DNA of 64,000 nt from Rhodococcus sp. 14-2470-1b (GTDB lineage Bacteria; Actinomycetota; Actinomycetes; Mycobacteriales; Mycobacteriaceae), in the NCBI RefSeq assembly GCF_002259415.1, contig NZ_NPFY01000016.1:62001-126000 (forward strand), in the 5' to 3' direction. Positions 4,297 to 25,423 of this stretch are shown in pieces; the stretch's first letter is position 1; each line of letters starts with the position of its first letter. Both the position numbers and the translations under genes were made by a program. Under the pieces are notes generated by a model. That model was not told where the DNA came from, made no database searches, and was given only the letters and a program-made list of their open reading frames with translations.

Positions 4297-4297
4297 C

Positions 4298-4927
4298 TCA
4301 GGCCTCCACCAGTTCCGCGTCGCGCATCGATGCAGTCCACGCCAGCAGGCCGCCCACGCACAGGGCGATGAAGCCCAGGTAGAGCACGGCCGTCAGGACC
4401 AGATCCTTGTACAGGTACAGCGGCACGTAGATCACGTCGGCGGCGATCCACAGGAACCACGATTCCCGACGCTTGTTGATCTGCCCCCACGTCGCCAGCA
4501 GTGACAGCGTGGTGGTCAGTGTGTCCCAGAACGGCACAACGGATTCCGTTGCCGTGGAGAGCAGCATGGTGATGCCCGCGACGCCTGCGACGCCCGCGAT
4601 GGCCAGCCATGTCCATTCCCGAACCGAGGTCGCGGTGACGATCGTCGTCTTTCGGTGTCCGCCGGACGTCCACGTGATCCAGCCCCAGACGGCAAGCGCG
4701 ATGTAGACGATCTGAAGGGCCGAGTCCGCGTACAACCCGGCACCGACGAACAGGAGAACGAACGCGACGTTGTTCGCGATTCCGATCGGCCAGTTCCACA
4801 CCGACTGTCGCGCGACGAGCAGGACACACAGTGCTCCCGTCGCGAATCCGATGACTTCGACCCAGGATGTCGGGGCGCCGAACGACACGAACGCGATCGA
4901 AGCGAGCCATTCAGTGAACGCGGTCAT
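4298..4927 (-). CDS. pnuC: PnuC nicotinamide riboside/mononucleotide transporter
   Basis: 209-residue integral membrane protein with about seven hydrophobic segments and the PnuC hallmark region NKRRESWFLWIAADVIYVPL near the C-terminal third (aromatic residues lining the substrate channel). PnuC proteins are facilitated-diffusion carriers for nicotinamide riboside driven by intracellular phosphorylation, here supplied by NadR encoded one base downstream. It is the first gene of the operon; the putative NrtR operator ends 10 bp upstream of its ATG. Length is in the normal PnuC range. Confidence 0.92.
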   Translation of the reverse strand: MTAFTEWLASIAFVSFGAPTSWVEVIGFATGALCVLLVARQSVWNWPIGIANNVAFVLLFVGAGLYADSALQIVYIALAVWGWITWTSGGHRKTTIVTATSVREWTWLAIAGVAGVAGITMLLSTATESVVPFWDTLTTTLSLLATWGQINKRRESWFLWIAADVIYVPLYLYKDLVLTAVLYLGFIALCVGGLLAWTASMRDAELVEA

Positions 4928-4936
4928 GTGCTGTTC

Positions 4937-4963
4937 CTTTAGTAGTCGATGTGACTACTAAAG
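4937..4963. promoter_or_regulatory. Putative NrtR operator in front of pnuC
   Basis: Perfect inverted repeat CTTTAGTAGTC - gatgt - GACTACTAAAG (11-bp arms, 5-bp spacer). It is 10 bp upstream of the pnuC start, placed to block the promoter or ribosome loading. NrtR-family boxes in other bacteria are palindromes of similar size, and nrtR lies in this same operon, so autoregulated repression is likely. Assignment to NrtR is inference; the dyad itself is seen directly. Confidence 0.75.
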
Positions 4964-9900: not shown

Positions 9901-11237
9901 GCGACGTCGTCGTCCTCGGAGGCGGATCGGGCGGGTATGCAGCTGCATTTCGTGCTGCGCAACTGGGACTTTCGGTCACCCTGGTGGAGAAGGACAAGGT
10001 CGGAGGAACCTGCCTGCACCGCGGGTGCATCCCGACCAAAGCCCTCCTCCACGCGGCGGAGGTGGCGGACACCGCCCGGGAGAGCTCGTCGGTGGGGGTT
10101 CGTGCGACCTTCGAGGGTATCGACATCGCCGGCGTCCACGCCTACAAGGACGGCGTGGTCTCCAAGCTGTACAAGGGCTTGCAGGGTCTCGTCAAGGCTC
10201 ACAAGATCGAATTCATCAGCGGTACGGGTAAATACGTCGGAAACAAGACCGTCGACGTGGACGGCCGCAGGATCACCGGATCATCGGTGGTCCTCGCAAC
10301 CGGGTCGTACGCAAAGGTGCTACCGGGAATCGAACTCGGGCCGCGAGTGCTGACCAGCGACCAGGCGTTGACCCTCGACTACGTCCCGAAACGAGCGATC
10401 GTGCTGGGCGGGGGAGTCATCGGCGTCGAATTCGCCAGTGTGTGGGCATCGTTCGGCGTCGAGGTGACCATCGTCGAAGCACTGCCCCGACTGGTTGCAG
10501 CCGAGGACGAGTGGGCGTCCAAACAGCTCACCCGGGCCTTCAAGAAACGAGGCATCGCCGCACGGACATCGTCGCCGTTCACCGGCGTCAAGGAAACCCC
10601 AGACGGTGTGACAGTGACCCTCGACTCCGGGGAGACGCTCGATGCCGATGTTCTGTTGGTCGCGGTCGGGCGTGGGCCCACTACGTCCGACCTCGGCGGC
10701 GTCTCGATGGATTCGGGATTCGTCGGCGTCGATGGAAACTTGATGACCTCGGACGACGGTGTCTACGCCGTCGGCGACATCGTCCGGGGACCACAGTTGG
10801 CGCACAGAGGATTTCAGCACGGAATCTTCGTCGCCGAGCACATCGCGGGTCTGAAGCCCGTCCCGGTCCCCGACGAGAACATCCCCCGGGTCACGTACTC
10901 GAACCCCGAAATCGCGTCCGTCGGACTGACGGAAGCGCAGGCGCTCGAGCGCCACGGCTCCGCGGATTCCGTCGTCTACGACCTCGCCGGCAACGGCAAG
11001 AGTCAGATCCTCGGCGCGTCGGGCGGGGTCAAGCTGGTGCGAGCCGGGGGCGCAGTCGTCGGCATTCACATGGTCGGCGCACGCGTCGGCGAACTGATCG
11101 GTGAAGCGCAGTTGGTCGTCAACTGGGGTGCATATCCCGAGGAAGTCGCGCACCTGATCCACGCGCACCCGACGCAGTCCGAGGCCTTCGGGGAAGCTCA
11201 CCTCGCTCTGGCGGGGAAGCCGCTGCATTCCCACTGA
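9897..11237 (+). CDS. lpdA: Dihydrolipoyl dehydrogenase (E3)
   Basis: 446-residue flavoprotein disulfide reductase that reoxidises dihydrolipoyl-E2 with NAD+. It has the FAD-binding GGGSGGYAAAFRA at residues 8-20, the redox pair in GGTCLHRGCIPTK (C39, C44), an NAD-binding GGGVIGVEFAS and the C-terminal catalytic HAHPTQSE. Last gene of the E1a-E1b-E2-E3 operon, overlapping E2 by 4 bp. A close paralogue lies at 49811-51172 in a second copy of the operon. Confidence 0.92.
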   Translation: MSDVVVLGGGSGGYAAAFRAAQLGLSVTLVEKDKVGGTCLHRGCIPTKALLHAAEVADTARESSSVGVRATFEGIDIAGVHAYKDGVVSKLYKGLQGLVKAHKIEFISGTGKYVGNKTVDVDGRRITGSSVVLATGSYAKVLPGIELGPRVLTSDQALTLDYVPKRAIVLGGGVIGVEFASVWASFGVEVTIVEALPRLVAAEDEWASKQLTRAFKKRGIAARTSSPFTGVKETPDGVTVTLDSGETLDADVLLVAVGRGPTTSDLGGVSMDSGFVGVDGNLMTSDDGVYAVGDIVRGPQLAHRGFQHGIFVAEHIAGLKPVPVPDENIPRVTYSNPEIASVGLTEAQALERHGSADSVVYDLAGNGKSQILGASGGVKLVRAGGAVVGIHMVGARVGELIGEAQLVVNWGAYPEEVAHLIHAHPTQSEAFGEAHLALAGKPLHSH

Positions 11238-11393
11238 GGTGTCTTCTGTTACGCCCGTGAAAACTAATCCTCCCAGCGTCCCGCATACGTAAATCTACGG
11301 ACGTGCCCACTGCCGAGTAGTTCCTACTGTTCAGCCATCGCATCAATCGGATGCGCATCACCGATCTCGGTGAGGCAAGCAGAAGGAGGCATG

Positions 11394-12110
11394 ATGGGAC
11401 GTCTGTCCGGATCAGTGGCCATCGTGACCGGTGCGGCGGGCGGTATCGGGTTGGGTATCGCCGAGCGTTTCGCCTTGGAGGGCGCAACCGTCGTCGCGAC
11501 CGACGTCCAAGGCCTGACCAGGGACAGTGCGGTTGCGATCCGTCAGCACGACGTGACCGACAGAGGCCAGTGGTCGGCACTGTTGGAGGACGTGCTGGCC
11601 GCCCACGGCAAGGTCGACGTACTCGTCAACAATGCGGGCGTCGCCGGCTACCACGACATCGTGGAGACACCCGTCGACGAGTGGCAACGCATCGTCGCTA
11701 TCAACCAGACCGGCGTGCTGTTCGGTATGCAGTCCGTCATTCCGGCGATGCGCGCCAACGGCGCAGGGTCGATCGTGAACGTGTCCTCGATCTGTGGATC
11801 GACAGCTGTGCCCGGTGTCGCGGCCTACCACGCCACCAAGGGCGCGGTGATCACCATGACCAAGAACGCGGCCGTGAGCTACGCCCGCGACGGGATCCGC
11901 GCCAACGTGATTCTTCCCGGCTGGATCAAGACGCCGATGACCGTCGGGCAGACCGACGAACTCAACGCTCGCTACCTCGACGCCACACCGCTCGGACACG
12001 GTGCAGATCCCGAGGATGTCGCCTGGGGCGCCGTCTATCTCGCGTCGCGCGAATCAGCCTTCGTCACCGGCGTCGAACTGCCTATCGACGGCGGATACCT
12101 CGCGCAATGA
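11394..12110 (+). CDS. SDR oxidoreductase (first of a tandem pair)
   Basis: 238-residue classical SDR: TGAAGGIG cofactor loop, NNAG, catalytic Ser in VSSICGS and YHATK. Asp after beta-2 (VVATDV) predicts preference for NAD(H) over NADP(H). ATG 11394 is preferred because AAGGAGG at 11383-11389 is 4 nt away, against 1 nt for the adjacent ATG 11391. It is followed by a clearly paralogous SDR in 4-bp overlap. The pair opens the long co-directional run containing the ABC importer and eutBC. Substrate unknown; an alcohol/ketone or amino-alcohol step is plausible. Confidence 0.88.
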   Translation: MGRLSGSVAIVTGAAGGIGLGIAERFALEGATVVATDVQGLTRDSAVAIRQHDVTDRGQWSALLEDVLAAHGKVDVLVNNAGVAGYHDIVETPVDEWQRIVAINQTGVLFGMQSVIPAMRANGAGSIVNVSSICGSTAVPGVAAYHATKGAVITMTKNAAVSYARDGIRANVILPGWIKTPMTVGQTDELNARYLDATPLGHGADPEDVAWGAVYLASRESAFVTGVELPIDGGYLAQ

Positions 12111-12862
12111 GCGCCCCTACCCGAGAAAGCGAACGCTCCACCATGAACAGGTTGCACGGCAAGGTCGCGCTGGTCACCGGCGCGCAACAGGGAATCGGAC
12201 GCGCGACGGCCGAAGCGTTCGTGGCCGAGGGGGCCACGGTATACGCGGCCGACCTGACCGACAGTTTCGAACGGATCGACGGTGCACACTCCATCGCCCT
12301 CGACGTCTCGCAGGAGGCGGCCTGGCAGTGCGCAGTCGAGGCCATCCTCGCCGAGCACGGCAGCATCGACGTACTGGTCAACAACGCAGGCGTCATCGCA
12401 TACTCCGGCATCGAGGAGATCGATGTCGACGAGTGGGACCGGGTCATCGGCGTCGATCAGACCGGTGTGTGGCTCGGTATGCGCGCGGTCGTTCCGTCCA
12501 TGCTCGCGGCAGGGGCAGGCTCGATCATCAACCTGTCCTCGGCATGGGGGGTTGTCGGTGGCGTCGGCGTCGCGGCGTACCAGGCTGCCAAGGGAGCCGT
12601 ACGGTCCATGACCCGAAATGCGGCAATCACTTATGCGCAGCAGGGAATTCGAGTGAACTCGATCGTGCCCGGGTGGATTCGAACGCCTCTCGCCGAAGCT
12701 CAGGATCCGGAGATCAACGCACGCGTCATCGGTGGAACGCCGATGGGGCGGGGCGCGGAACCGAGCGAAATTGCCTATGGCTGTGTCTATCTCGCCAGCG
12801 ACGAGTCCTCCTACGTCACCGGAACCGATCTGGTCATCGACGGCGGCCTGCTCGCTCGCTAG
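12107..12862 (+). CDS. SDR oxidoreductase (second of a tandem pair)
   Basis: 251 residues from ATG 12107 (ATGA overlap with the preceding SDR); the SDR fold itself begins at an alternative start Met13 (12143, MNRLHGK). Signatures: TGAQQGIG, VNNAG, LSSAWG and YQAAK; Asp after beta-2 (VYAADL) again suggests NAD. It aligns along its whole length with the preceding SDR, so the two arose by tandem duplication and probably act on related substrates or on opposite stereoisomers (inference). Confidence 0.88.
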   Translation: MSAPTRESERSTMNRLHGKVALVTGAQQGIGRATAEAFVAEGATVYAADLTDSFERIDGAHSIALDVSQEAAWQCAVEAILAEHGSIDVLVNNAGVIAYSGIEEIDVDEWDRVIGVDQTGVWLGMRAVVPSMLAAGAGSIINLSSAWGVVGGVGVAAYQAAKGAVRSMTRNAAITYAQQGIRVNSIVPGWIRTPLAEAQDPEINARVIGGTPMGRGAEPSEIAYGCVYLASDESSYVTGTDLVIDGGLLAR

Positions 12863-12887
12863 AGCCCGAACGAGAGAGAGATTCATT

Positions 12888-13766
12888 ATGAGCAGGACAG
12901 TCACCGTTTCCGCGGTGCAATTCGAAATGCGCGAGCTCGACGGTTTCGACGCCTTCGCCGCACAGGTCCGAGGGCTGACAGAGCAGACGGACGGTAGCGA
13001 CATCGTCGTGTTCCCGGAGCTCGTCACCGAGCCGCTGTTCACCGTCAAGCCCGGGTGGCAGTCCGATCCGATCTCCGAACTCGGACGTATCTCGGAGTAC
13101 ACCGACGACTACCGCGCCTTGTTCGCGGACCTCGCCCGCACTCGTGGTCAGAACATCCTCGCCGGCACACATCTCGTGCGCACCGAGGAGGGGCTGCTGA
13201 ACACGGCCTTTCTGTTCACTCCGGACGGCACCGAATACCGGCACGAGAAGACTCATATCTTCCCGACCGAGGCCGACTGGGGAACGGGTGAAGGAGACCG
13301 ACTCGATCCGATCGATCTCGGCAACGTCACCGTCGGAATCGCGGTCTGCTACGAGGCCGAGATACCGGAGGTCAGCACGGTTCTGTCACGGCGCGGAGCC
13401 GAACTTCTGCTGATGCCGTCGTACACGTTCACCGAGGCCGGCTTCTATCGCGTCCGGCACACCGCGGCAGCGAGATGCATCGAGAACCAGGTCTACGCAG
13501 TACACGCACCGATCGCAGGTTTCGCCGGAGCACCACTGTCACCGGGCTGGGCGAGGGCGTCGATCCTGAGCCCGTGTGATCTGGACTTCCGCGCTGACGG
13601 TGTGGTGGCCGAGGCCCGGACGAACGTCGAGGACGTCATCACGGCCACGTTGGACCTGGACCTGCTTGCGGAGAACCGAAAGACGGGAGCGGCGACGACG
13701 TTCTTCGATCGGCAGCGCCGGAACCCGCTGTATCGCACATTTTCCGCAGACCTACTCCCCGAATAG
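12888..13766 (+). CDS. Carbon-nitrogen hydrolase (nitrilase superfamily amidase/carbamoylase)
   Basis: 292 residues with the nitrilase-superfamily catalytic triad: Glu in VFPELVTEPL, Lys in RHEKTHIFP and Cys in GIAVCYEAEIPEV. The CYEAE context is that of amidases and N-carbamoyl-hydrolases rather than true nitrilases (which have CWE). It hydrolyses a C-N bond of an amide or carbamoyl compound in the cytoplasm. ATG 12888 follows GAGAGAGA at suitable spacing. It stands between SDRs and a PgdA/cyclic-imidase-like enzyme in the eut-containing operon; a half-amide or N-acyl-ethanolamine type substrate would fit, but this is inference. Confidence 0.85.
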   Translation: MSRTVTVSAVQFEMRELDGFDAFAAQVRGLTEQTDGSDIVVFPELVTEPLFTVKPGWQSDPISELGRISEYTDDYRALFADLARTRGQNILAGTHLVRTEEGLLNTAFLFTPDGTEYRHEKTHIFPTEADWGTGEGDRLDPIDLGNVTVGIAVCYEAEIPEVSTVLSRRGAELLLMPSYTFTEAGFYRVRHTAAARCIENQVYAVHAPIAGFAGAPLSPGWARASILSPCDLDFRADGVVAEARTNVEDVITATLDLDLLAENRKTGAATTFFDRQRRNPLYRTFSADLLPE

Positions 13767-13782
13767 AAGGAGACCTCGACAA

Positions 13783-14625
13783 ATGCCTCTGAACCTGCCC
13801 GAAGGTAAGAAGATCGCCGTCAACATCGGCTGCGATTTCGACGCACACAGTGTCTGGATGGGAACGTTCGGCAAGACCAGCCCCAGCTACCTCTCCCGCG
13901 GTGAGTTCTGCGCCGAGGTCGGTGTGCCGCGGATGCTCTCACTGTTCGATCGCTACAAGATCGCCGGAACCTGGTGCACCCCCACACATTCCATGGAGAC
14001 GTTTCCCGACGCCTTCCAGAGCATCGTCGACGCAGGACAGGAAGTCGCTGCTCACGGGTGCTACCACGAATCGGTGCCGTCGCTCGATCTCGACACCGAA
14101 CGGCACCTCATGGACAAGACCCTGAAGCTGCACGAGAAGTACGTCGGAAAGCGCCCGCGCGGATACCGTTCGCCGGCTTGGGACTTCACCGAGCACACCA
14201 TGTCGATCCTCGAAGAGCACGGTTTCGAATGGGACTCCTCGCTCATGGGCCGCGATTTCGAGCCGTACCATCCGCGTCCGGTGGAGGTGCGCTGGGAAGA
14301 GGGAAGCGTCCTCGGCGCCCCGTCACCGATTCTCGAGTTCCCCGTGTCCTGGTTCCTCGACGACTTCCCCGCGGCCGAGTACATCCCCGGCGTCAACCAG
14401 GGCTTCGAGTCGACAGCGTCGATGTACGAGCGCTGGAAGGACCACTTCGACTACTGCTACGACAACGTCCCAGGCGGAGTCATGGCCCTGACGGTGCATC
14501 CGCAGACCATTGCTCGCGCGCACCACATCATCATGTTCGAGAAGCTCCTCGACTACATGTCCGGTCACGACGGCGTCTGGTTCGCGTCCCTCAGCGACAT
14601 CTACGACACGTGGACCGAGAACTGA
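13783..14625 (+). CDS. Polysaccharide-deacetylase-fold hydrolase (HpPgdA / cyclic-imidase-like)
   Basis: 280 residues, no signal peptide. NodB-fold metal site visible as Asp in CDFDAH (about residues 17-22) and the His pair in AAHGCYHES; GYRSPAWDFT is the usual RxPxW-like strand. The HpPgdA/PuuE subgroup includes cytoplasmic amide- and imide-ring hydrolases as well as peptidoglycan deacetylases. The lack of an export signal and the position directly after a carbon-nitrogen hydrolase favour a small-molecule imidase or amidase over a cell-wall enzyme (inference). AGAAGGAG precedes ATG 13783. Confidence 0.8.
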   Translation: MPLNLPEGKKIAVNIGCDFDAHSVWMGTFGKTSPSYLSRGEFCAEVGVPRMLSLFDRYKIAGTWCTPTHSMETFPDAFQSIVDAGQEVAAHGCYHESVPSLDLDTERHLMDKTLKLHEKYVGKRPRGYRSPAWDFTEHTMSILEEHGFEWDSSLMGRDFEPYHPRPVEVRWEEGSVLGAPSPILEFPVSWFLDDFPAAEYIPGVNQGFESTASMYERWKDHFDYCYDNVPGGVMALTVHPQTIARAHHIIMFEKLLDYMSGHDGVWFASLSDIYDTWTEN

Positions 14626-14653
14626 ACGCCCCTTCCAAACTCAAAGGACCATC

Positions 14654-15682
14654 ATGAAGCTTCGCACCATGAGCATCGCAGCCGCGGCAGCAGTGCTCAC
14701 CGTATTGCCCGCCTGTTCGGTCGACGCAGTCGCCGACTCCTCCGGCGAAGGGCGCGAGCAGACAGTTCCCACTGTCGACTCGGCATCCGATCTGAAGATC
14801 GCGTACTTCTCCGCCGGAGCGAGCAACGCCTACCTGCAGGCCTCCATCGACGAGGCGAAGAAGACAGCCGACGAACTCGGCGCCGAACTCGATGTCTTCG
14901 ACGGACAGTTCAACGCCCAGACTCAGTTCGATCAGATGCAGAATGCGATCACGAGCGGAAAGTACAACGCGTTCGCTGTCGAGCCGAACGACGGAAACCT
15001 CGTGTGCAACATGCTGACTCAGCAGGCACCCGAAAAGAACATCATCGTCTCGGTGTTCAACCTCCCCATCTGCGGCCGCGCCACCAACAGTGGCGAGGAG
15101 ACTTGGGAGCCCGGCACCGTCAACTACGTAGGCGGGCAGACCCTCGACGTCTACGAAGCATGGGTGGAGAAGGTCAAAGCCGACCATCCCGACGGCGCCA
15201 AGATCGCGCTGATCTCCGGACCCGACCTCAACGCGAACACGCTGTGCTTCTTCGATGCAGCACAGGCGTTCGACGGTGACGGCCGGTACCAGGTCGTCGC
15301 CAAGCAGACCACCGACTACACCACTCCCAAGGGTTTCCAAGCCGCACAGACGATTCTGCAGGCCAACCCTGATCTCGACGTCGTGATGTCGAACTTCTCC
15401 GGCATGACGCGTGGGGTCGTGCAGGCGACCGCAGGCCGCGATGTCTCGGTGTACGACTTCGGTGGCGATCAGTGGGCGCTCGACAACGTCTCTTCCGGTG
15501 CCATCACCAGCAGCGTGATGATGCTTCCGCGTCTCGAGACCCGCATGGCGATCCAGGGACTCGCCGACACCGTCGAGAAGCGCGACACCGCGCGGTTCGT
15601 CGATCTGTCCACGTCGGACTCCCTCCCCGGTACACCGTTCGCCGAGCGCAGCAACGTCGCCGACTTCACGGCCGAGTACTAG
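14654..15682 (+). CDS. ABC transporter substrate-binding lipoprotein (ribose-type, PBP1)
   Basis: 342 residues with an N-terminal lipoprotein signal (hydrophobic stretch, then lipobox LPAC with Cys at residue 20), so anchored outside the membrane. The mature part is a type-1 periplasmic-binding fold (DLKIAYFSAGASNAYLQASI opening, then SGKYNAFAVEPND), the class used by RbsB/XylF systems. It should deliver the ligand to the permease and ATPase encoded next. Being in one run with eutBC, the ligand may be an amino alcohol or a conjugate of it rather than a sugar; not proven. Confidence 0.88.
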   Translation: MKLRTMSIAAAAAVLTVLPACSVDAVADSSGEGREQTVPTVDSASDLKIAYFSAGASNAYLQASIDEAKKTADELGAELDVFDGQFNAQTQFDQMQNAITSGKYNAFAVEPNDGNLVCNMLTQQAPEKNIIVSVFNLPICGRATNSGEETWEPGTVNYVGGQTLDVYEAWVEKVKADHPDGAKIALISGPDLNANTLCFFDAAQAFDGDGRYQVVAKQTTDYTTPKGFQAAQTILQANPDLDVVMSNFSGMTRGVVQATAGRDVSVYDFGGDQWALDNVSSGAITSSVMMLPRLETRMAIQGLADTVEKRDTARFVDLSTSDSLPGTPFAERSNVADFTAEY

Positions 15683-15691
15683 AGGCGCGAG

Positions 15692-17200
15692 ATGACTGTG
15701 AACGAAACGCGGTCGACCGCGATCGACTGCATCGAGGTGAGCAAGACCTACGGCGCCAATCGCGCAGTGAAGTCGGCGACGGTGCAGATCGAAGCAGGCA
15801 GTGTGCACGCTCTGGTGGGGGAGAACGGCGCAGGCAAGTCCACTCTCCTCGGCATGATCAGCGGCCGTGTGGAAGCCAGTTCGGGTTCCATCACGGTGTT
15901 CGGCACCGAACTGCACGGTGGCAACCCCCGGGAAGTACGCCAACTCGGTCTTGCGGCCGTCTACCAGGAACTGACGATGGTGCCCGCGCTCGATGCGGTG
16001 GCCAATGTATTCCTCGGACAGAATCTCACCCGGCGGGGCATTCTCGACGGGAAGGCGATGCGAGCCCGATTCACCGAGATGTGCGTCGACTTCGACGTCG
16101 ACATCCCGGCGGGCGTCCCGGTGCGTGAGTTGTCGGTGTCCACCCAGCAGATTCTCGAGATCATGCGCGGTGTCCAGGCGGACAGCAAGGTGTTGATGCT
16201 CGACGAACCCAGCGCGGCTCTGGCCGAGCACGAGCGGGATACGTTGTACCGGGTGCTCGACCGCCTACGTTCACAGGGCACGACGATCATCTTCGTAAGC
16301 CACAACTTGGAAGAAGTTCTGGCACTTGCGGACCGCATCACCGTGCTGCGAGAAGGAACGATCGTACGCACCGCGGACCGTGCCGAATGGGATCGAAAGC
16401 GTCTCATCCAGGAAATGGTGGGCCGCGACGTCGAGGTCGCTGTGCGTGCCGAACGCCGGCCGCTGGGCGAAACAGTGCTGCAAGCACAGGACGTGTCGCT
16501 GCCGAACGTCCTGCACGGTCTCGACATCACCGTCCGCCAGGGCGAGATAGTCGGGTTGTGGGGACTCGTCGGGTCCGGCCGGACGACGTTCATGCGCTCC
16601 ATCTGCGGTATGGAACCGGCAGCCACAGGTCGGATGACGCTCGACGGTGCCGAGATCGCCTGGCCCAAGAGTCCTCGCGCGGCCATCGACGCAGGGCTGG
16701 TTCTGGTTCCGGAGAGTCGACGTGCCGGCCTCGTACTCAACATGGACGGTGCCAGCAACTACTGGCTCGGCCGCTCGAAACGCACGTTCGGATGGCTCCG
16801 TCCGGGACGAGAGCGTGACGGGGCGTCGGAACCGGTGCGGTACTTCGGATTCGACCCCGGCCGCCTCGGCGAACCGGTGGTCCACCTCTCCGGCGGCAAC
16901 CAGCAGAAGGTGTTGCTCGCCAAGTGGGCTGGGCACACACCGAAGGTCCTGTTCGTCGACGAACCGACGCGCGGTATCGATATCGGTGCCAAGTCCGAGG
17001 TGCTCGCCTCGCTCGTCAACTTGGCCGAGGAAGGCGCATCCGTCGTGGTCACGTCCTCCGAACTCGAGGAAGTTCTCGCAGTCGCCGACCGACTGCTCGT
17101 GTTCGCGCACGGGCGGATCGTCGACGACATTCCAGCAGGTTCACCGACATTCACGGTGGCCGACATCGTCAAGCTCGGCTTTCGAGAGGATGCAGCATGA
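15692..17200 (+). CDS. ABC transporter ATP-binding protein, duplicated (RbsA type)
   Basis: 502 residues with two ABC domains. The first has the canonical Walker A GENGAGKST, signature LSVSTQQ and Walker B VLMLDEPSAAL. The second has the degenerate Walker A GLVGSGRTT typical of the RbsA/MglA family, signature LSGGNQQK and FVDEPTRGID. It energises the importer formed with the lipoprotein upstream and the permease downstream; only one permease gene is present, presumably acting as a homodimer. Gap to the binding protein is 9 bp; overlap with the permease is 4 bp. Confidence 0.92.
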   Translation: MTVNETRSTAIDCIEVSKTYGANRAVKSATVQIEAGSVHALVGENGAGKSTLLGMISGRVEASSGSITVFGTELHGGNPREVRQLGLAAVYQELTMVPALDAVANVFLGQNLTRRGILDGKAMRARFTEMCVDFDVDIPAGVPVRELSVSTQQILEIMRGVQADSKVLMLDEPSAALAEHERDTLYRVLDRLRSQGTTIIFVSHNLEEVLALADRITVLREGTIVRTADRAEWDRKRLIQEMVGRDVEVAVRAERRPLGETVLQAQDVSLPNVLHGLDITVRQGEIVGLWGLVGSGRTTFMRSICGMEPAATGRMTLDGAEIAWPKSPRAAIDAGLVLVPESRRAGLVLNMDGASNYWLGRSKRTFGWLRPGRERDGASEPVRYFGFDPGRLGEPVVHLSGGNQQKVLLAKWAGHTPKVLFVDEPTRGIDIGAKSEVLASLVNLAEEGASVVVTSSELEEVLAVADRLLVFAHGRIVDDIPAGSPTFTVADIVKLGFREDAA

Positions 17201-18198
17201 GTACGTCAATCGACACCAACCCGGTCGCGAGCAGTCCCGCTCCCGACAAGTCTTCGAAGAAGAAGACCAGTCCCAGCACCTTCCTGGTGAAGTACAGCAT
17301 GCTGGTCGTGCTGGTGCTGCTCGTCGTCGTCGCGACGTTCCTGTACGACGGGTTCCTGGCGCCGGCGAACATCCGGGACATCCTGGTCCAGAACGCAGCC
17401 GTCGGAATCATCGCTGTCGGTATGACATTCGTGATCATCTCGGGTGGATTCGACCTGTCCGTGGGCGCAACGTACGCACTCGGTTCGACAGTGTTCGCCG
17501 GCGTCACGATCTCCACCGGTTCGGTGGCATTGGCCGGCGCGGCAGCGTTGGCCGCGGGTCTACTGTGCGGATTGGCCAATGGATTGTTGGTGGCGAAACT
17601 TCACATCAACCCATTCGTCGCGACGCTCGGTTCTGCGTCGGTGATCTCGGGGTTGGCCTACATCTACTCCAACTCCGCACCGTTCATCGTCTCCCAACCC
17701 GGTTTCCAGGCACTATCGAAGTCGCACACGCTCGGTATCCCGACTCCGATCTTCATCCTGATCCTGACGATGGTCGTCGGCGGCATCGTGTTGGCCAAGA
17801 CGACGATCGGACGAAACGTGCAGGCCGTCGGTGGTAACACCGAAGCCGGCTGGTTGTCGGGACTGAGGGTTCCGTCGATCACTGCGAGCGTGTACGTGCT
17901 CACCGGCGCGCTTGCCGCGATCGCGGGGATGATCGACGCGTCGCGGCTAGCCGTCGGGCAGGCGGATGTCGGTGCGAACATCGCGCTCGACGCCATTGCA
18001 ATCGTTGTCGTCGGTGGAACGTCGCTGCGCGGCGGAGAGGGCGCGATGTGGCGCTCCGCGGTCGGTCTGCTGATCCTCGCGACGCTGACCAACGTGTTCT
18101 ACAGCCTCAACGTCAGTCAACATTGGCAGCTCATCGCCAAGGGTCTGATCGTGATCGCCGCTGTCGCTCTCGATTCCGCTGCACGACGCCGATCCTAG
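17197..18198 (+). CDS. ABC transporter permease (RbsC type)
   Basis: 333 residues with 8-10 hydrophobic segments after a short Ser/Lys-rich cytoplasmic N-terminus. Family marks are the GMTFVIISGGFDLSVGA region and the coupling segment VGGTSLRGGEGAMW (BPD_transp_2). It forms the membrane channel of the ribose-type importer. Start ATG 17197 overlaps the ATPase stop; eutB starts 8 bp after its TAG, so import and ammonia-lyase are in one transcription unit. Confidence 0.9.
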   Translation: MSTSIDTNPVASSPAPDKSSKKKTSPSTFLVKYSMLVVLVLLVVVATFLYDGFLAPANIRDILVQNAAVGIIAVGMTFVIISGGFDLSVGATYALGSTVFAGVTISTGSVALAGAAALAAGLLCGLANGLLVAKLHINPFVATLGSASVISGLAYIYSNSAPFIVSQPGFQALSKSHTLGIPTPIFILILTMVVGGIVLAKTTIGRNVQAVGGNTEAGWLSGLRVPSITASVYVLTGALAAIAGMIDASRLAVGQADVGANIALDAIAIVVVGGTSLRGGEGAMWRSAVGLLILATLTNVFYSLNVSQHWQLIAKGLIVIAAVALDSAARRRS

Positions 18199-18206
18199 GG
18201 AGTTCC

Positions 18207-19604
18207 ATGTACAAGGCTCTGGTGGGCGGGGAGCGATTTCGATTCGATTCGCTGAAAGAGGTGTTGGCGAAAGCGAACGAGATCAAATCCGGTGACGAGC
18301 TTGCCGGCATCGCGGCTCGATCCGACAGCGAACGGATAGCAGCCAAGATCGCATTGTCCGAGGAGACCCTGGCGAGGATCCATGGTGAGCCCGTCATCGA
18401 GGACGCGATCACCGACGCCGTCCACGCCGCGCACGACGAAGTGGGCTTCCGTTCCATCTCGGCGTTGACCGTGGGCGAGTTTCGTGAGGTCGTTCTGTCC
18501 GAAAGTTTTCCGACGGAATGGAACGGCGGACTGGCGTCGGCGATCGGTCCTGAAATCGCCGCAGCAACAGCAAAACTGATGAGTGACCTCGATTTGATCG
18601 TCGCAGCATCGAGGCTGCAGGTGGTGACCAAGTGCCGCAACACGCAGGGTGAACGCGGCGTCTTCGGGTGTCGAATTCAACCGAATCATCCGACCGACGA
18701 CGTCACTGGAATCATGTTGTCGGCGCTGGACGGTCTGATGTACGGCTGCGGCGACGCCGTCATCGGTGTGAACCCGGCGACCGAGTCGCCCGATACCGTC
18801 GGCCGGGTACTGCACGCGATTCACGACCTGATCGAACTGACCGGAGCACCGACCCAGTCCTGTGTGTTGTCGCACATCACGACCCAACTCGCAGCGCTGG
18901 AACGCGGCGCCCCCGTCGATCTGCTGTTCCAATCGGTAGCGGGCAGCGAGGCAGCGAATCGGAGCTTCGGGATCTCGCTCGACATGTTGGCCGAAGGGCG
19001 CGACGCCGTGGCGGAATCCCATCGGCGTCGCGCACACGAGTTCGTCGGCGAGCAGTTCATGTACTTCGAGACCGGACAGGGCAGCGCGCTGTCCGCCGAC
19101 GCACACCACGGCGTCGACCAACTGACGTTGGAAGCCCGGGCGCAGTCCGTCGCGCGACTCTACGACCCGTTCCTGGTGAACTCCGTGGTGGGATTCATCG
19201 GCCCCGAGTATCTGGCCAACTCGCGTCAGATCACCCGAGCCGGACTGGAGGATCACTTCGTCGGCAAGCTCATGGGTCTCCCGATGGGGTGCGATGTCTG
19301 CTACACCAACCACGTCGACTCCGACCAGAACGACAACGACAACCTCCTGGCCCTGCTGGGCCTGGCCGGGTGCACGTTCGTGATGGGCGTCCCGGCAGGG
19401 GACGACGTGATGCTCAACTATCAGTCGACCAGCTACCACGACGTCGCGAGCGTCCGGAAGCTGCTCGGGAGCGGCCCCGCTCCGGAGTTCGCGTCGTGGC
19501 TGTCCGAGCAACGTGGCTGGGACCCGGCGCAGGGGATCCTCGAGCTACCGGAGCAGTGGTGGGCGGCAGTCGGTGCGCGCAGCCTTCCAGCGATCGGCGC
19601 GTGA
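18207..19604 (+). CDS. eutB: Ethanolamine ammonia-lyase large subunit
   Basis: 465 residues, near the usual length of EutB (about 450). Conserved stretches of the TIM-barrel active-site subunit are visible: CRNTQGERGVFGCRIQPNHP, TGIMLSALDGLMYGCGDAVI, FMYFETGQGSALSADAHHG and MGCDVCYTNHVDSDQNDNDN. With EutC it uses adenosylcobalamin to convert ethanolamine (or a related 2-amino alcohol) to aldehyde plus ammonia. It follows the ABC permease by 8 bp and overlaps eutC by 1 bp (TGATG). No microcompartment, EutA reactivase, EutH or EutE genes occur in the window. Confidence 0.93.
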   Translation: MYKALVGGERFRFDSLKEVLAKANEIKSGDELAGIAARSDSERIAAKIALSEETLARIHGEPVIEDAITDAVHAAHDEVGFRSISALTVGEFREVVLSESFPTEWNGGLASAIGPEIAAATAKLMSDLDLIVAASRLQVVTKCRNTQGERGVFGCRIQPNHPTDDVTGIMLSALDGLMYGCGDAVIGVNPATESPDTVGRVLHAIHDLIELTGAPTQSCVLSHITTQLAALERGAPVDLLFQSVAGSEAANRSFGISLDMLAEGRDAVAESHRRRAHEFVGEQFMYFETGQGSALSADAHHGVDQLTLEARAQSVARLYDPFLVNSVVGFIGPEYLANSRQITRAGLEDHFVGKLMGLPMGCDVCYTNHVDSDQNDNDNLLALLGLAGCTFVMGVPAGDDVMLNYQSTSYHDVASVRKLLGSGPAPEFASWLSEQRGWDPAQGILELPEQWWAAVGARSLPAIGA

Positions 19605-20434
19605 TGGACGACCTCGTCGAGAACGGTGGGGCGGCGGCTCGGCGCGCCCTGGAAACCGCGACTCCTGCGCGAATCCGAGTGGGACGGGCCGGTACGTCGT
19701 ACCCGACCTCGCTGTTGTTGCAGCTTCGAGCCGACCACGCCAGTGCCCGCGACGCGGTCCATTCCGCGGTCGACTACCGCTCCGGGGAACTCGAGCGGGT
19801 GCTGGCAGGTCGAGATCCCATCCACCTCGTCAGTGCGGCCGGATCCCGCGAGCGATACCTGGTGCGTCCCGATCTCGGACGCGTACTCGACACCGAGTCA
19901 CGGTCCGAACTGCGGCATCGAGGAACGAAAGACGCCGACATCCAGATCGTTCTGGGTGACGGTCTTTCCGGGACTGCCGTCGCCCGCCAGGTCCCACTCG
20001 TTCTGCCCGGTCTGCTGGACGGTGCGAGTGCGCGAGGATGGACGGTCGGGAGGGTGATCACCGTCGAGAACTGCCGGGTCGGGATCATGAACGATATCGG
20101 CGCCACGCTCGGCTCGGGCGTGGTGGTTCTCCTCATCGGTGAGCGACCAGGGCTGCGTGCGGCGGACAGTCTGTCTGCGTACATGGCGTGGCGACCGGGG
20201 CCGGGCAACACCGACGCCGACCGCAACCTCGTCGCGAACATCCATGCACGTGGGGTGGGCCCGGTCGATTCGGTCGCTCGGATCCTCGACTTGGCCGCCC
20301 AGATGCACAGCCGTCGCTACAGCGGAGTGGCGATCAAGGAAAATCTCGCGCTCGCCGCGGAAGATCACACTGCTGGTCGAACGGATTTAACTCGTTCGAC
20401 ACAACTGACGCCGGTTTCCGGATTAGTGTCCTGA
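19604..20434 (+). CDS. eutC: Ethanolamine ammonia-lyase small subunit
   Basis: 276 residues. EutC hallmarks are ARIRVGRAGTSYPTSLLLQL at the N-terminus, QIVLGDGLSG, VTVENCRVG-like segment (VITVENCRVGIMNDIG) and LIGERPGLRAADSLSAYMAW, contributing to the cobalamin site. The N-terminus is short and lacks the long extension that targets enterobacterial EutC into microcompartments, agreeing with the absence of shell genes. The ATG overlaps the eutB stop by one base; a GTG three bases earlier is also possible. Confidence 0.93.
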   Translation: MDDLVENGGAAARRALETATPARIRVGRAGTSYPTSLLLQLRADHASARDAVHSAVDYRSGELERVLAGRDPIHLVSAAGSRERYLVRPDLGRVLDTESRSELRHRGTKDADIQIVLGDGLSGTAVARQVPLVLPGLLDGASARGWTVGRVITVENCRVGIMNDIGATLGSGVVVLLIGERPGLRAADSLSAYMAWRPGPGNTDADRNLVANIHARGVGPVDSVARILDLAAQMHSRRYSGVAIKENLALAAEDHTAGRTDLTRSTQLTPVSGLVS

Positions 20435-20480
20435 CCAGGGCGGGGAAGCTCGAGTTCTAGGTCGGAAAGGCTCTTCGCCA

Positions 20481-22241
20481 GTGAAGCTACATCATCATGC
20501 GGACACCACTGTCGCGGCGAGCTATCTGGTTCGTCCCGACGGCACCGTCGAACATTCCTGGGTGACCGAGCCGGGACCGCTGTCGACGATTCCCGGTGAC
20601 GTCGCGGCCATCGCCGTCGGAGTCATGCGTGACGACCTCCTCGAGGCGCGCTTTCGGTGGATGTCGCCGAAGAAGCAGCTGCTCGCCGTGTGCATCTCCC
20701 TCGTCGATGCCGGTGCGGAGGCACGCGCCGAGGTGTCGATACGCGAGGACGCAGAACTCGTGTGGGGGCTCACCGCACGGGAGGTCGACGTCGTCACCCT
20801 CCTGGCCGGTGGCCTGACGAACCAGGACATCGCCGACCGACTGTGGCTCAGTCCGAGGACGGTCACCACTCACGTCGACCGAGTTCTCGCGAAGCTCGGG
20901 GTCAAGAGTCGAACCGCGGCCGCGACCAAGGCATTGGACGAGGGCATGACGCGGTTGCCCGTGCCTGGCGGGACCGACGGTTTCGAGCATCTCGCTCTCG
21001 TCCGGGCATCCGCCGCGGTGCCGGGCAGAAGGCTGGTCCCTGCATCGCGACGTATCCGTTTGCAGCCACTCGTGATCGGCTCGGCTGTTCCGATCACCGG
21101 AATCGCACGTGCCGACGGCGAGGAAATGGTGCGCGGCACCGAACTGGCACTCGCGGAGATCAACGCCCGTGGTGGTGTCTGCGGTCGACGTGTCGAACTG
21201 GCCACCGCGGACGTGGACATCGTGTCGGAGTCGAGCATCGAGAAGGGCATGCTCGAATTGGCAGGCAAAGGCGTCGACGCCATTACCTCGGGTTATTTCG
21301 CGTGGCAGGAAGTGGCGCACGAAGTCGCAGCCGATTACGGGGCACCCTATCTGCACGCTGCGACGCTCGACGCGATGGTCCAACGTGTCGAGCACGACCC
21401 GTCGCGGTACGGGCGGATCTTCCAGGTCTGCCCGAGTGACACCAACTACGGCCCCGGGTTCGTGGAATTTCTTGCAGGCCTGAAGAGGCGGGGACAGTGG
21501 AACCCGTCGTCCAAGCGGTTGGTGGTGTTGCTCGGAGCATGGAAGGTGTCCAACTTGGGACTCGATCGAGCTGCCGACCTGGCTCAGGAACAGGGGTGGT
21601 CGCTCGACATCGTCCGGGTCGGTCCCAGCACGCAGGACTGGGTCGACGCCGCCAGCCGTGTGCGGTCTCTCGCTCCTGCAGCACTGTTGATCGGCCACTA
21701 CTTCGTCGACGGCACCGTCGCGACCATCCGAGCACTCCTGGACAACATGCCGGATACGTTGATCTACAGCCTCTACGCGCCGTCGATCCCGGAGTTTCGA
21801 GAGCAGTTGGGCGAGCGTGCCAACGGGATCCTGTGGGCGACGGTGACCGGAACGTACTCGGATCCGGTGAGCAAAGGCTTCGCCGAGCGTTACAAGCGCG
21901 CCTACGGAGTGTTCCCCGGACGGTCGCACGCCGGAATTTCCTATGACCGCACGATGATTCTCGCCGACGCGTGGTCTCGGTCGGCATCTCCGCGGGACTA
22001 CGGAAAGGTCTCGCACGAGATACGCAGTCTCGTGCACCGCGGTGTCAACGGCTCGTACTACCTCGGCGGCAAAGGGCAGGCTGCCGTCGCGTACCCGTTG
22101 GCGTCGGCGGATGCCTCGTTGGCCCAGGCGCATCTGGTGTATCAGATCCAGGACGGCAAGCACCGAATCCTCAGTCCGGACCCGCAGGCGGACAGTGCGT
22201 TCCAGCTTCCACCGTGGTTCAGGCAGTCGCCTACCCGGTGA
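20481..22241 (+). CDS. LuxR-type HTH fused to a type-1 periplasmic-binding-protein domain (one-component regulator)
   Basis: 586 residues, GTG start at 20481 behind GGAAAGG. Residues 1-95 form an unassigned N-terminal region. About 97-155 is a GerE/LuxR helix-turn-helix (LTAREVDVVTLLAGGLTNQD, then LSPRTVTTHVDRVLAKLGVK). About 197-575 is a full substrate-binding domain of the amide/urea/branched-chain amino-acid type (AmiC/UrtA-like: AVPITGIARADGEEMVRGTE, YFAWQEVAHEVAADYGAPYL). There is no signal peptide or membrane segment, so ligand sensing is cytoplasmic. Position directly after eutBC suggests it controls the importer/eut run in response to the imported compound or a product. It overlaps the convergent glcD-like gene by 11 bp. 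Confidence 0.8.
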   Translation: MKLHHHADTTVAASYLVRPDGTVEHSWVTEPGPLSTIPGDVAAIAVGVMRDDLLEARFRWMSPKKQLLAVCISLVDAGAEARAEVSIREDAELVWGLTAREVDVVTLLAGGLTNQDIADRLWLSPRTVTTHVDRVLAKLGVKSRTAAATKALDEGMTRLPVPGGTDGFEHLALVRASAAVPGRRLVPASRRIRLQPLVIGSAVPITGIARADGEEMVRGTELALAEINARGGVCGRRVELATADVDIVSESSIEKGMLELAGKGVDAITSGYFAWQEVAHEVAADYGAPYLHAATLDAMVQRVEHDPSRYGRIFQVCPSDTNYGPGFVEFLAGLKRRGQWNPSSKRLVVLLGAWKVSNLGLDRAADLAQEQGWSLDIVRVGPSTQDWVDAASRVRSLAPAALLIGHYFVDGTVATIRALLDNMPDTLIYSLYAPSIPEFREQLGERANGILWATVTGTYSDPVSKGFAERYKRAYGVFPGRSHAGISYDRTMILADAWSRSASPRDYGKVSHEIRSLVHRGVNGSYYLGGKGQAAVAYPLASADASLAQAHLVYQIQDGKHRILSPDPQADSAFQLPPWFRQSPTR

Positions 22242-23653: not shown

Positions 23654-25423
23654 ATGGAGTCGGATAGATCATGGATGGATTTGCTGCTCGACGACGCATC
23701 GATCGACGAGCTCGAAGCGCATCGCCTTGCCTTTCCCGGTCCCGACGCGCACGCCGCCCTGCGGTTGCGCGCGCTGCTGGACCAGCGGCGTCAGCGCAGC
23801 ACCGAACTGGCTGCTCTGAACGACATCGCGGTGCGGTTGACCACGGCACGTGACGACCGTGTCCTGCTTCAGGAGGTCGTCGACCAGGTACGCCGCCTGT
23901 TGGGAGTCGATCTCGCCTACATGGGCTCGGTGTACGACGACGAATTCGTCATCGAAGTCACCAGCGGTGCACTGACGCCGAATCTGATCGGGATCCGGTT
24001 GGCTCAGGACGAAGGGCTGGTGGGCGTCATCGTGCGCGGAGCGGCGCCGTCGTGGACGCCCGACTATCAGAGCGAGCCCGCCTTCCGACACATCACCGGT
24101 GCGGACAGTGCGGCACGGTCGGAGAACATGCGAGGGCTGCTCGGGGTTCCGCTGAAGGTAGGGGATCGGGTGATCGGAGCGCTGTTCGCCTGCAAGCGTC
24201 AGGAGCGTGACTTCGCGGACAGTGAGATCGCGTTGCTGTCTGCTCTCGCCGCGCACGCTGCGCTTGCCATCGAGAACGTCCGTGCCATCGAACGGCTCGA
24301 AGCGGTGAACGCCGAGCTGTCGGCACGGACCGCCGAACTCGAACAGACTCTGCAGTGGGACAGGATGCTGACTCAGGTGGTGCTGCGCGGGGGTGGGGTG
24401 GGTCGTCTCGTTCGGGAGGTGGCAACGCTCTCCGGTCGGCCGGCGTTCTTTCTCACCGACGCCTCATCTGTTCCGGAATCTCTGGAAGAACGGGTCGTTC
24501 CAGTCGAGATTCTGTTCGGACAATGCCGCGACGGCGCCGACATCGTCGCCGACGACGTCGTCGTTGCCCACCGTGTCGCCGCTGCGGGCGAGTTTCTCGG
24601 GGTCCTGATCTCGGTGGGTCCGGACGATCAGCAGACGCGGCTCCTCCTGGACCGCGCGGTGCCCGCCATCGCGTTGTCGCTCGCCGAGGAGCGCGCGGCG
24701 GCGGAAGCTGCCCGACGGGCGCAGGATGCGTTTCTCGTCGATCTGCTCTCTCATCCGGCAGCGTCCACCGACGAAGAGCGACGGCAACTTCGCCTTGCCG
24801 GCCTGTCCCCGGGTGCCTCGTACTGCATCGCCGTCGCACAGGGTCCGGTGTCCCGTGCCGAGATCGGCAGATCGGAATTCCCGGTGGGTACGGTTGTGGC
24901 AGAACATGGTTCGAGGGTGCTGGTCGCGGTGCCCGCGCAGGAATCGGCGGTGGTGCGGCCGATGTTCACGACGGGCGCGACGGTGGGAATCTCGGAGCCG
25001 GCACGCGGAGCGGTCGCGCTAGCGGCTGCCTACCGCGAGGCCCAGCAGACCGTCGATGTGTTGATCACTCTCGGGCGGGACGGTGAGGTGTCGTCGGCGC
25101 GCGGGCTCGGCATCTATCGAATTCTTCTGAGCCACATGGCTCGCGAGCATCTCGACGAGCTCACCGAGGAGCAACTGGGTCCGCTGATGGCCGAGCAGAG
25201 CAAGCGGGGCGTTCCGTTGCTCGAATCGCTGTCCGTGTACCTCGCACACGGGCGTCACCATTCGGCCACCGCCGCAAGTCTTGGAGTGCACGTCAACACG
25301 CTCTACCAACGGCTCGACGCCATAGACCGGCTCATCGGCGTCGAGTGGCGTGACCCGGACAAGGCACTGGACCTGCAAGTGCTGATGCGACTCCGACGAA
25401 GCGCGGATCTATTGGGGAAGTGA
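23654..25423 (+). CDS. GAF-domain PucR-family transcriptional regulator
   Basis: 589 residues. A GAF sensor domain at about 50-200 (LNDIAVRLTTARDDRVLLQE opening, AHAALAIENVRAIERLEAVN closing) is followed by a heptad-rich linker (ELSARTAELEQ), a central region, and a C-terminal PucR-type helix-turn-helix (SATAASLGVHVNTLYQRLDA). Such proteins are activators of catabolic genes sensing small aromatics, purines or similar ligands. Divergent from the glcD-like gene; its 3' end overlaps the convergent alpha/beta-hydrolase gene by 15 bp. Target and ligand not determinable. Confidence 0.83.
   Translation: MESDRSWMDLLLDDASIDELEAHRLAFPGPDAHAALRLRALLDQRRQRSTELAALNDIAVRLTTARDDRVLLQEVVDQVRRLLGVDLAYMGSVYDDEFVIEVTSGALTPNLIGIRLAQDEGLVGVIVRGAAPSWTPDYQSEPAFRHITGADSAARSENMRGLLGVPLKVGDRVIGALFACKRQERDFADSEIALLSALAAHAALAIENVRAIERLEAVNAELSARTAELEQTLQWDRMLTQVVLRGGGVGRLVREVATLSGRPAFFLTDASSVPESLEERVVPVEILFGQCRDGADIVADDVVVAHRVAAAGEFLGVLISVGPDDQQTRLLLDRAVPAIALSLAEERAAAEAARRAQDAFLVDLLSHPAASTDEERRQLRLAGLSPGASYCIAVAQGPVSRAEIGRSEFPVGTVVAEHGSRVLVAVPAQESAVVRPMFTTGATVGISEPARGAVALAAAYREAQQTVDVLITLGRDGEVSSARGLGIYRILLSHMAREHLDELTEEQLGPLMAEQSKRGVPLLESLSVYLAHGRHHSATAASLGVHVNTLYQRLDAIDRLIGVEWRDPDKALDLQVLMRLRRSADLLGK

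Follow-up and report, generated by a model that had tools for sequence, protein, structure and literature searches.

A sparse family of proteins joining a LuxR-type helix-turn-helix to an AmiC/LIV-class binding domain, and its candidate operator at a putative imide/amide catabolic cluster of Rhodococcus

A 64,000-nucleotide stretch of the genome of Rhodococcus sp. 14-2470-1b (assembly GCF_002259415.1, contig NZ_NPFY01000016.1, positions 62,001 to 126,000 of the forward strand; hereafter the window, with coordinates counted from its first letter) contains one open reading frame (ORF) for a regulator in which a PAS-like N-terminal domain and a LuxR-type (GerE) helix-turn-helix (HTH) are followed by a binding domain of the AmiC/LIV class. 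The regulator and its relatives form a single clade and lie in a recurrent neighbourhood of dehydrogenase, imidase-like, amide hydrolase and importer genes; in 14 loci a conserved palindromic site precedes the first dehydrogenase gene with nearly constant spacing. The protein is best understood as a cytosolic one-component activator that would sense an imported imide or amide and drive its own catabolic operon, a reading to which we assign a probability of about 70%.

A first-pass annotation of the window, made from the letters alone, had described a LuxR HTH fused to a complete binding domain in the single ORF 20481-22241, and the Pfam matches, the PDB matches and the AlphaFold2 (AF2) model agree on this build. 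GerE is matched at residues 97-150 (E 4e-17, 62 bits against a curated cut-off of 23.5) and Peripla_BP_6 (PF13458) at 197-543 (E 1.2e-21, 78.3 bits against 31.7), whereas the match of PF13433 stays under its own cut-off. The HTH is therefore internal in a chain of 586 residues, with the binding domain behind it, as had been claimed, and not C-terminal as is usual for LuxR/GerE regulators. No LacI model appears among the Pfam matches at E up to 0.1, GerE being present instead. The nearest PDB chain by sequence is 3h5l of Silicibacter pomeroyi, a putative branched-chain amino acid importer protein (residues 193-581, E 2.4e-53), and GerE-type PDB chains match around residues 94-161.

The AF2 model, computed from 21 family members, reaches a mean predicted local distance difference test (pLDDT) score of 85.7 and consists of three folded parts in the order N-domain, HTH and binding domain; pLDDT values below 50 are restricted to residues 1-8, 181-192 and 583-586. 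The domain order given by the annotation holds, whereas its limits for the binding domain (197-575) give way to modelled ones of about 195-580. Structure superposition of the binding domain on 3h5l gives Z 45.4 and a root mean square deviation (rmsd) of 3.3 over 383 aligned residues with 30% identity, and on AmiC (1qo0/1pea) Z ~34.6 over ~340 residues with 15-16% identity. Since AmiC is one of many proteins of the type I binding fold among the structural matches listed (Z 32-45), the ligand cannot be named from the fold alone. The first 90 residues are modelled as strand-strand-helix followed by three strands. The ten best Foldseek matches of a separate AF2 model of residues 1-165 (pLDDT 88.3), which includes the HTH, are chains of the PAS-LuxR proteins VqmA and EL222; VIA-align superposes VqmA on residues 9-162 with Z 11.6, rmsd 7.0 and 145 aligned residues, the HTH included, and matches DegU, LiaR and RhlR chains to the HTH at Z ~12. 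The N-terminal domain as modelled is PAS-like, and Pfam gave no match of a PAS family to the regulator at E up to 0.1.

One scan with a six-row alignment, run over the species-genome collection, returned 51 loci, 22 of them (L051-L072) matching most of the protein. These belong to Rhodococcoides, Streptosporangiaceae, Pseudonocardia, Nakamurella, Leucobacter, Streptomyces, Sediminivirga, Actinomycetospora, Microbacterium, three little-named metagenome-assembled genomes (MAGs) and the Pseudomonadota Kaistia (two copies) and Lichenifustis. GerE and the binding domain share a single ORF at 20 of the 22 loci, with frame breaks in L061 and L072. The regulator frame of the window was compared codon by codon with those of two sister species, Rhodococcoides kyotonense (L052) and a Rhodococcus MAG (L053). 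Over 60 codons of the HTH there are 0 and 1 amino acid changes against 27 and 26 third-position differences, and a similar codon-position bias is seen in the linker and the binding domain. The N-domain is the most variable part, with 26 changes in 96 codons in the first comparison and 29 in 95 in the second; the binding domain has 33 and 28 in 390 codons, and many of its residues are invariant across 21 family sequences. The entire frame thus looks translated and under selection at the protein level. As the bias runs through the HTH and the linker, it argues against an untranslated HTH part and, with the 20 single-ORF loci, bears out the view of one gene rather than two. The seven internal ATG/GTG/TTG codons at residues 152-198 are by themselves no mark of a second gene. 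A split into two genes, or an artefact of sequencing or annotation, would find a footing in the two frame breaks, but the single ORFs elsewhere, the unbroken bias and the common clade of the fusions speak against it, and this highly improbable explanation was rejected on the first two of these grounds.

Simple tests of the window protein found no hydrophobic segment (19-residue hydropathy peaks at 1.25 ahead of the binding domain and at 1.28 in the whole protein), no twin-arginine (Tat) motif and no lipobox, in keeping with the earlier statement that an export signal and a membrane segment are lacking. Together with the domain content, this points to a cytoplasmic one-component sensor, as had been proposed. 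Ahead of the binding domain of the unfused relatives, a loose test detected a Tat motif or lipobox pattern in 10 of 11 cases.

The fusion family is recurrent but sparse. Within the genus sample it was found in 4 of 37 genomes, own genome counted; 8 of 401 genomes of the family sample match at E up to 1e-30, one of them being G680, the source of the truncated L119. In the order sample (n = 200), the own genome and G794 have full matches, the cluster proteins of G794 being identical to their counterparts in Nakamurella leprariae. In the phylum sample (n = 296), full-length matches come from the own genome and from three genomes of MAG type that belong to a single family, namely the contigs of L060, L062 and L063; a 17-genome sample of that MAG family contained the same three carriers. 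For the family, order and phylum samples, only the best 3 to 6 candidates per genome were scored. The scan of the species-genome collection relied on two exact peptide patterns, so that more distant fusion members were missed. A common, well-described architecture had been named by the annotation as a point against its own reading: the family recurs, yet sparsely, and searches of the open-licence PMC literature showed no description of the fusion build or the gene cluster.

Both GerE and Peripla_BP_6 exceed the Pfam cut-offs in all six further members tested and in the Kaistia paralogue. In a midpoint-rooted tree of 38 binding domains, the 24 fusions and the truncated protein of L119 form one clade (100/100) that excludes the 11 unfused relatives and the two outgroup rows; L071 has a long branch. 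L061 and L072 were omitted from the alignment and the tree for their frame breaks and retained in the tally and site scans below; L051, a copy of the window, was omitted from the tally and the tree. The own genome has no paralogue of the fusion: its 24 other matches cover mainly the HTH, with one over a portion of the binding domain (27% identity) and another at 133-248. The closest relatives of the binding domain are importer binding proteins, both 3h5l and the unfused proteins of L060, L062, L063 and L118, which show 33-35% identity to the sensor domain and adjoin LIV-type importer genes in the same clusters. Unlike the importer proteins with their export patterns, the fusions carry an HTH instead. 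Most likely, an AmiC-like domain was joined once behind a PAS-LuxR regulator, and its probable source is an exported binding protein of an ATP-binding cassette (ABC) importer. The importer adjacent to the regulator in the window has, as noted before, a different binding protein, assigned by Pfam to the Peripla_BP_4 family. The accompanying idea that sensor and importer recognise the same or a related metabolite receives indirect support from the three MAGs and genome G632, where the unfused proteins closest to the sensor domain adjoin LIV-type ATPase or permease genes.

To describe the gene neighbourhood, ORFs from 24 loci were grouped into clusters whose representatives were assigned to families with Pfam. 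A tally, with bit cut-offs chosen by the analyst, then compared 26 fusion loci (L119 included) with 28 control loci from the same scan that hold only an unrelated GerE gene, within the available flanks. L086, with a binding protein only, was excluded from the controls; L092 was counted as a control, being an unrelated LuxR gene even though it had grouped with the fusion loci in the clustering. Short-chain dehydrogenase/reductase (SDR) genes were present at 22 fusion and 3 control loci, and genes for polysaccharide-deacetylase-family (imidase-like) proteins at 21 and 0. All other categories were absent from the controls: importer genes (ABC ATPase at 19 fusion loci, Rbs-type permease at 16, Peripla_BP_4 at 16), amide hydrolases (penicillin amidase at 13, CN-hydrolase at 8, AAT at 4, any of the three at 24), EutB (6), GlnA-like (3) and aldehyde dehydrogenase (5). 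The two loci missing an amide hydrolase are L055, where the contig ends within the cluster, and the degenerate L119.

The region upstream of 11394, suggested earlier as a target of the regulator, holds the candidate operator TACGTAAATCTACGGA (11286-11301), a palindrome of the ATCCGTCA-TGACGGAT type to which the regulator may bind. Its centre lies 31.5 bases before the sequence TACTGT in three species of the Rhodococcoides group, while most of the intervening bases differ, and the 18-base site of the window ends 92 bases before the ATG of SDR1 at 11394. The motif emerged by following TCCGT-N6-ACGGA; a listing of the palindromes of 14 loci had shown no common motif, and a plain dyad search with 5-base arms gave weak counts, with 4 of 21 stretches upstream, where the shuffled maximum was 3 (30 shuffles), and 3 of 20 downstream, where it was 4. 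The exact dyad TCCGT-N6-ACGGA occurs 8 times in 6 of 27 loci (the 26 fusion loci and L123) and in none of the 28 controls; Markov shuffles of the 26 fusion loci gave a mean of 1.15 and a maximum of 3. On the gene map, six of these eight exact sites are intergenic, ahead of a regulator, an importer protein, a luciferase-like gene or an imidase-like gene. The site at L060 10558 is within a small unclustered ORF, 76 bases before imidase-like homology, and that at L072 9712 within the over-long start of a luciferase-like ORF, 22 bases before the homology to L065.

A site matrix was built from five groups, each locus being scored with its own group left out. The window site ranks first with 24.7, the next match scoring 11.0. 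Among 15 held-out loci, the regulator has the best match within 350 bases in 7 and one of the top two in 11; with 40 column-permuted matrices, the corresponding means on these loci were 0.95 (best) and 1.9 (best two), with maxima of 6 and 7. In 10 of the 15 (L054-L059, L061, L066, L067 and L070), a match ends 72-94 bases before the start of SDR1 homology, this being the best match in 8 and the second-best in L054 and L056. The corresponding distance is 92 in the window, 93 in L052, 96 in L053 and 76 in L119; in all, 14 loci have the palindrome 72-96 bases ahead of the first SDR gene, and 10 of these loci were unused for motif building. Elsewhere, the best match of L116 lies 90 bases before a luciferase-like gene, three further sites in L060, L062 and L118 lie 51-76 bases before the imidase-like gene, and the best match of L071 precedes by 41 bases an unlabelled ORF, behind which genes for an importer ATPase and permease are found. 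The interval right before the regulator (20435-20480), the other target put forward earlier, was rejected, as it is not among the four best matches of the 26.5 kb scanned.

We propose that the cytoplasmic binding domain would bind a small amide or imide after its import, or else the half-amide derived from it. Closure of the two lobes on the ligand would alter the engagement of the palindrome at the operon head by the GerE HTH, the regulator acting probably as a dimer through its HTH and PAS-like parts. Activation of the promoter before 11391 would then lead to transcription of the co-directional series SDR-SDR-amidase-imidase-importer-EutBC-regulator, and the regulator, whose gene comes last in this series, would thereby boost its own production. 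We favour activation rather than repression because of the place of the site, its centre lying 31.5 bases before TACTGT and about 43 before the inferred start, where a class II activator would be expected; LuxR/GerE regulators are, moreover, mostly activators. Both points count against a repressor that uses the same operator and is released by its ligand, as are most LacI/GalR proteins. Such a repressor would share with LacI/GalR the logic of an HTH combined with a type I binding domain, and in MAG clusters the site is very near the regulator start (L062, 4724 against an ORF start at 4739); on balance we regard it as unlikely. Quite improbable, in turn, is a binding domain that is ligand-free and serves dimerisation or protein contact, leaving sensing to the PAS-like domain. 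The likeness of the N-domain to the ligand- or light-binding PAS-LuxR proteins VqmA and EL222 would suit this arrangement, but it is the N-domain that varies most, and the binding domain that keeps many residues invariant.

Several observations weigh against an activator acting from the cytoplasm on this site and this cluster. Six of the 24 fusions also match a loose signal pattern, either within the N-domain or HTH or where the ORF start is over-long, and maximal hydropathy overlaps between fused (0.52-1.6) and unfused (1.37-3.16) proteins, so that the export contrast between them is only suggestive and the test a weak one. Genome G680 (L119) retains the binding part without the N-terminal and HTH parts (tblastn, 20 kb). 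The neighbourhood queries came from the same loci, 22 of the 26 being self-matches, which makes the tally partly circular; in the independent loci L116-L119, an amide hydrolase is present in three of four and the imidase-like gene in two of four. With EutB in only 6 of 26 loci, ethanolamine cannot be the product everywhere within these stretches. As to the site, a sigma-70 consensus scan of 11200-11420 found no promoter, and the reading of TACTGT as a -10 element hence draws on its conservation. The dyad with one mismatch occurs 33 times in 15 of 27 loci, many of them within genes, against 8 times in 7 of 28 controls. Because the training sites were chosen for their fit to the dyad, there is some circularity in the high ranks of training loci. 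For best matches, one of the permuted matrices attained 6 of 15; L117 has no site near its regulator by the matrix scan, and L064, L068 and L071 have matches with no SDR, luciferase or imidase-like start within reach. The held-out flank matches score 1.7-17.4 and the controls up to 15.2, which means that place, not score, carries the test. The sequence TMCGTA-N4-TACGGA occurs once in the genome, which is uninformative, since simple arithmetic predicts ~1.4 occurrences by chance.

The chemistry of the pathway can be sketched from the enzymes of the cluster. The deacetylase-family protein of the window matches HP0310 in the PDB with 206 bits, the uncharacterised deacetylase 3rxz with 129 and PuuE-type allantoinases with 59-60. 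The penicillin amidase of L054, the single member examined, is nearest to D-succinylase (615 bits, against 174 for the next kind). As described in PMC9304392, HxnM is a cyclic imidase with HP0310 as its closest structural relative, and it acts ahead of the amide hydrolase HxnN. The kinship with HP0310 and the presence of amide hydrolases suggest an imide-like ring opening followed by half-amide cleavage. In the proposed pathway, SDR oxidation would precede ring opening by the imidase-like enzyme, the half-amide would be cleaved by one of three interchangeable amide hydrolases and the freed amine would then be used; since EutB and EutC follow in the window, this amine may there be ethanolamine. 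Penicillin amidase, AAT and CN-hydrolase families have a wide substrate range. This breadth, the GlnA-like genes in three loci and the aldehyde dehydrogenase genes in five, and the lack of activity of HP0310, structurally nearest to PuuE-type allantoinases, on the compounds tried (PMC3084791) would also suit a pathway other than imide/amide catabolism under the same regulatory logic, for example one for N-acyl amines, ureides or peptidoglycan-derived compounds. Set against this, an imidase-like enzyme occurs together with an amide hydrolase of any of three kinds, among them a D-succinylase-like one, which fits ring opening and then half-amide cleavage, as in the HxnM/HxnN steps (PMC9304392). 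We hold such a pathway to be a serious possibility, though somewhat less likely than not.

The fusion can be compared with several known systems. LacI/GalR regulators combine an HTH and a cytoplasmic type I binding domain in a single chain; unlike them, the protein described here has a GerE HTH, a binding domain of the AmiC/LIV class (Peripla_BP_6) and not of the sugar class, and a PAS-like domain in front. AmiC is a separate protein that restrains AmiR. In Pseudomonas aeruginosa, AmiC-AmiR (1pea, 1qo0) is, by the PDB entry titles, an amide receptor controlling amidase genes, and it shares the type I binding fold; here, in contrast, the receptor is covalently joined to the GerE domain, a DNA palindrome is the proposed target and sequence identity is low. 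PAS-LuxR regulators end with the HTH. In the one-component proteins VqmA and EL222, a PAS domain precedes a GerE HTH, an order that the N-domain modelled here resembles in its PAS-like topology, whereas ~430 residues, mostly binding domain, follow the HTH here. PteF of Streptomyces is grouped with PAS-LuxR regulators in the abstract of PMC9394381. HxnW-HxnM-HxnN of Aspergillus nidulans nicotinate breakdown comprise a dehydrogenase, an HP0310-related cyclic imidase and an amide hydrolase (PMC9304392), as proposed here; unlike the bacterial cluster, they belong to a fungal pathway. MSMEI_1050 of Mycobacterium smegmatis is a LuxR-type regulator of an amidase gene (PMC10199920). PMC6055005, the single paper found to contain both the GerE and Peripla_BP_6 names, gives them in separate rows of an E. 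coli table, not as a fusion.

Tentatively, at close to but short of even odds, we regard the family as an undescribed group of cytoplasmic sensors in which an importer binding protein was captured once by a PAS-LuxR regulator, and which controls an undescribed imide/half-amide pathway where the amide hydrolase occurs in three unrelated forms while the sensor, the imidase-like enzyme and the operator are constant. The family would illustrate how a nutrient receptor that works outside the cell can turn into a gene switch of the cytoplasm, joined to a new DNA-binding partner, and it offers a testable operator and defined target genes in culturable species. Should the ligand be found, the regulator could serve as a one-protein biosensor for amides or imides, and as a lead to an uncharacterised nitrogen-compound pathway spread over many actinobacteria. 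The features of the window are collected in Table 1.

Table 1. Features of the regulator and its gene cluster in the window.
Feature	Coordinates	Strand	Basis and remarks
Candidate operator	11286-11301		Upstream of SDR1; part of a 21-base block shared unchanged by three species
Proposed -10 element TACTGT	11325-11330	+	Own reading of conservation
SDR dehydrogenase 1	11394-12110	+	Pfam adh_short_C2 9e-61; ATG 11391 or 11394
SDR dehydrogenase 2	12161-12862	+	Pfam 5.9e-60; Pfam match to stop, in ORF 11351-12862
CN-hydrolase (nitrilase superfamily)	12885-13766	+	Pfam 7.7e-19; nearest PDB nitrilase/beta-ureidopropionase, nitrilase homolog 2
Polysaccharide-deacetylase-family protein (imidase-like)	13783-14625	+	Nearest PDB H. 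pylori HP0310, PuuE allantoinase further off
Importer binding protein, Peripla_BP_4	14510-15682	+	Pfam 3e-30; ORF limits, start over-long
Importer ATPase	15692-17200	+	Monosaccharide type by best NCBIfam matches, all below cut-offs
Importer permease	17371-18162	+	Pfam domain match in ORF 16924-18198
EutB, ethanolamine ammonia-lyase large subunit	18237-19511	+	Pfam domain match 2e-184
EutC, ethanolamine ammonia-lyase small subunit	19643-20338	+	Pfam domain match 3e-75; frame ends 20434
Fusion regulator, 586 aa	20481-22241	+	GTG start, open frame; PAS-like domain, GerE HTH, AmiC/LIV-class binding domain
N-terminal PAS-like domain, residues 11-89	20511-20747	+	AF2 models; Foldseek and VIA-align of the 1-165 model
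GerE/LuxR helix-turn-helix, residues 97-150	20769-20930	+	Pfam E 4e-17; structural matches Z ~12
Type I binding domain, residues 195-580	21063-22220	+	Pfam E 1.2e-21; superposition on 3h5l, AmiC

The regulator is the last of the co-directional genes and begins 46 bases past the EutC frame. Between the proposed -10 element and the first SDR gene, the window has two inverted repeats at 11339-11372, CGCATC-AATCG-GATGCG and CACCGA-TC-TCGGTG; the counterpart of the first in L052 reads CACATC/GATGTG, a paired change. Downstream of the regulator, beyond a GlcD-like flavin oxidase, a GAF and PucR-type HTH regulator is encoded at 23654-25423, with relatives in L051 and L053. In Kaistia hirudinis (L064), two fusion regulators (3225-4943 and 12044-13819) flank one cluster. 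In L119 (8831-11033), homology to the second SDR runs to ~10035 and binding-domain homology begins at ~10029; the binding domain, its PAS-like and HTH parts lost, abuts the second SDR gene, and the site at 8738 is kept, 76 bases before the first SDR. A glutamine-synthetase-like gene stands near the regulator in L057 (by Pfam), L065 and L066, a hint of other amine use, and genes for PAS-containing sensor kinases lie beside the imidase-like gene in two MAG clusters (L060 10995-13469 and L062 11226-14570).

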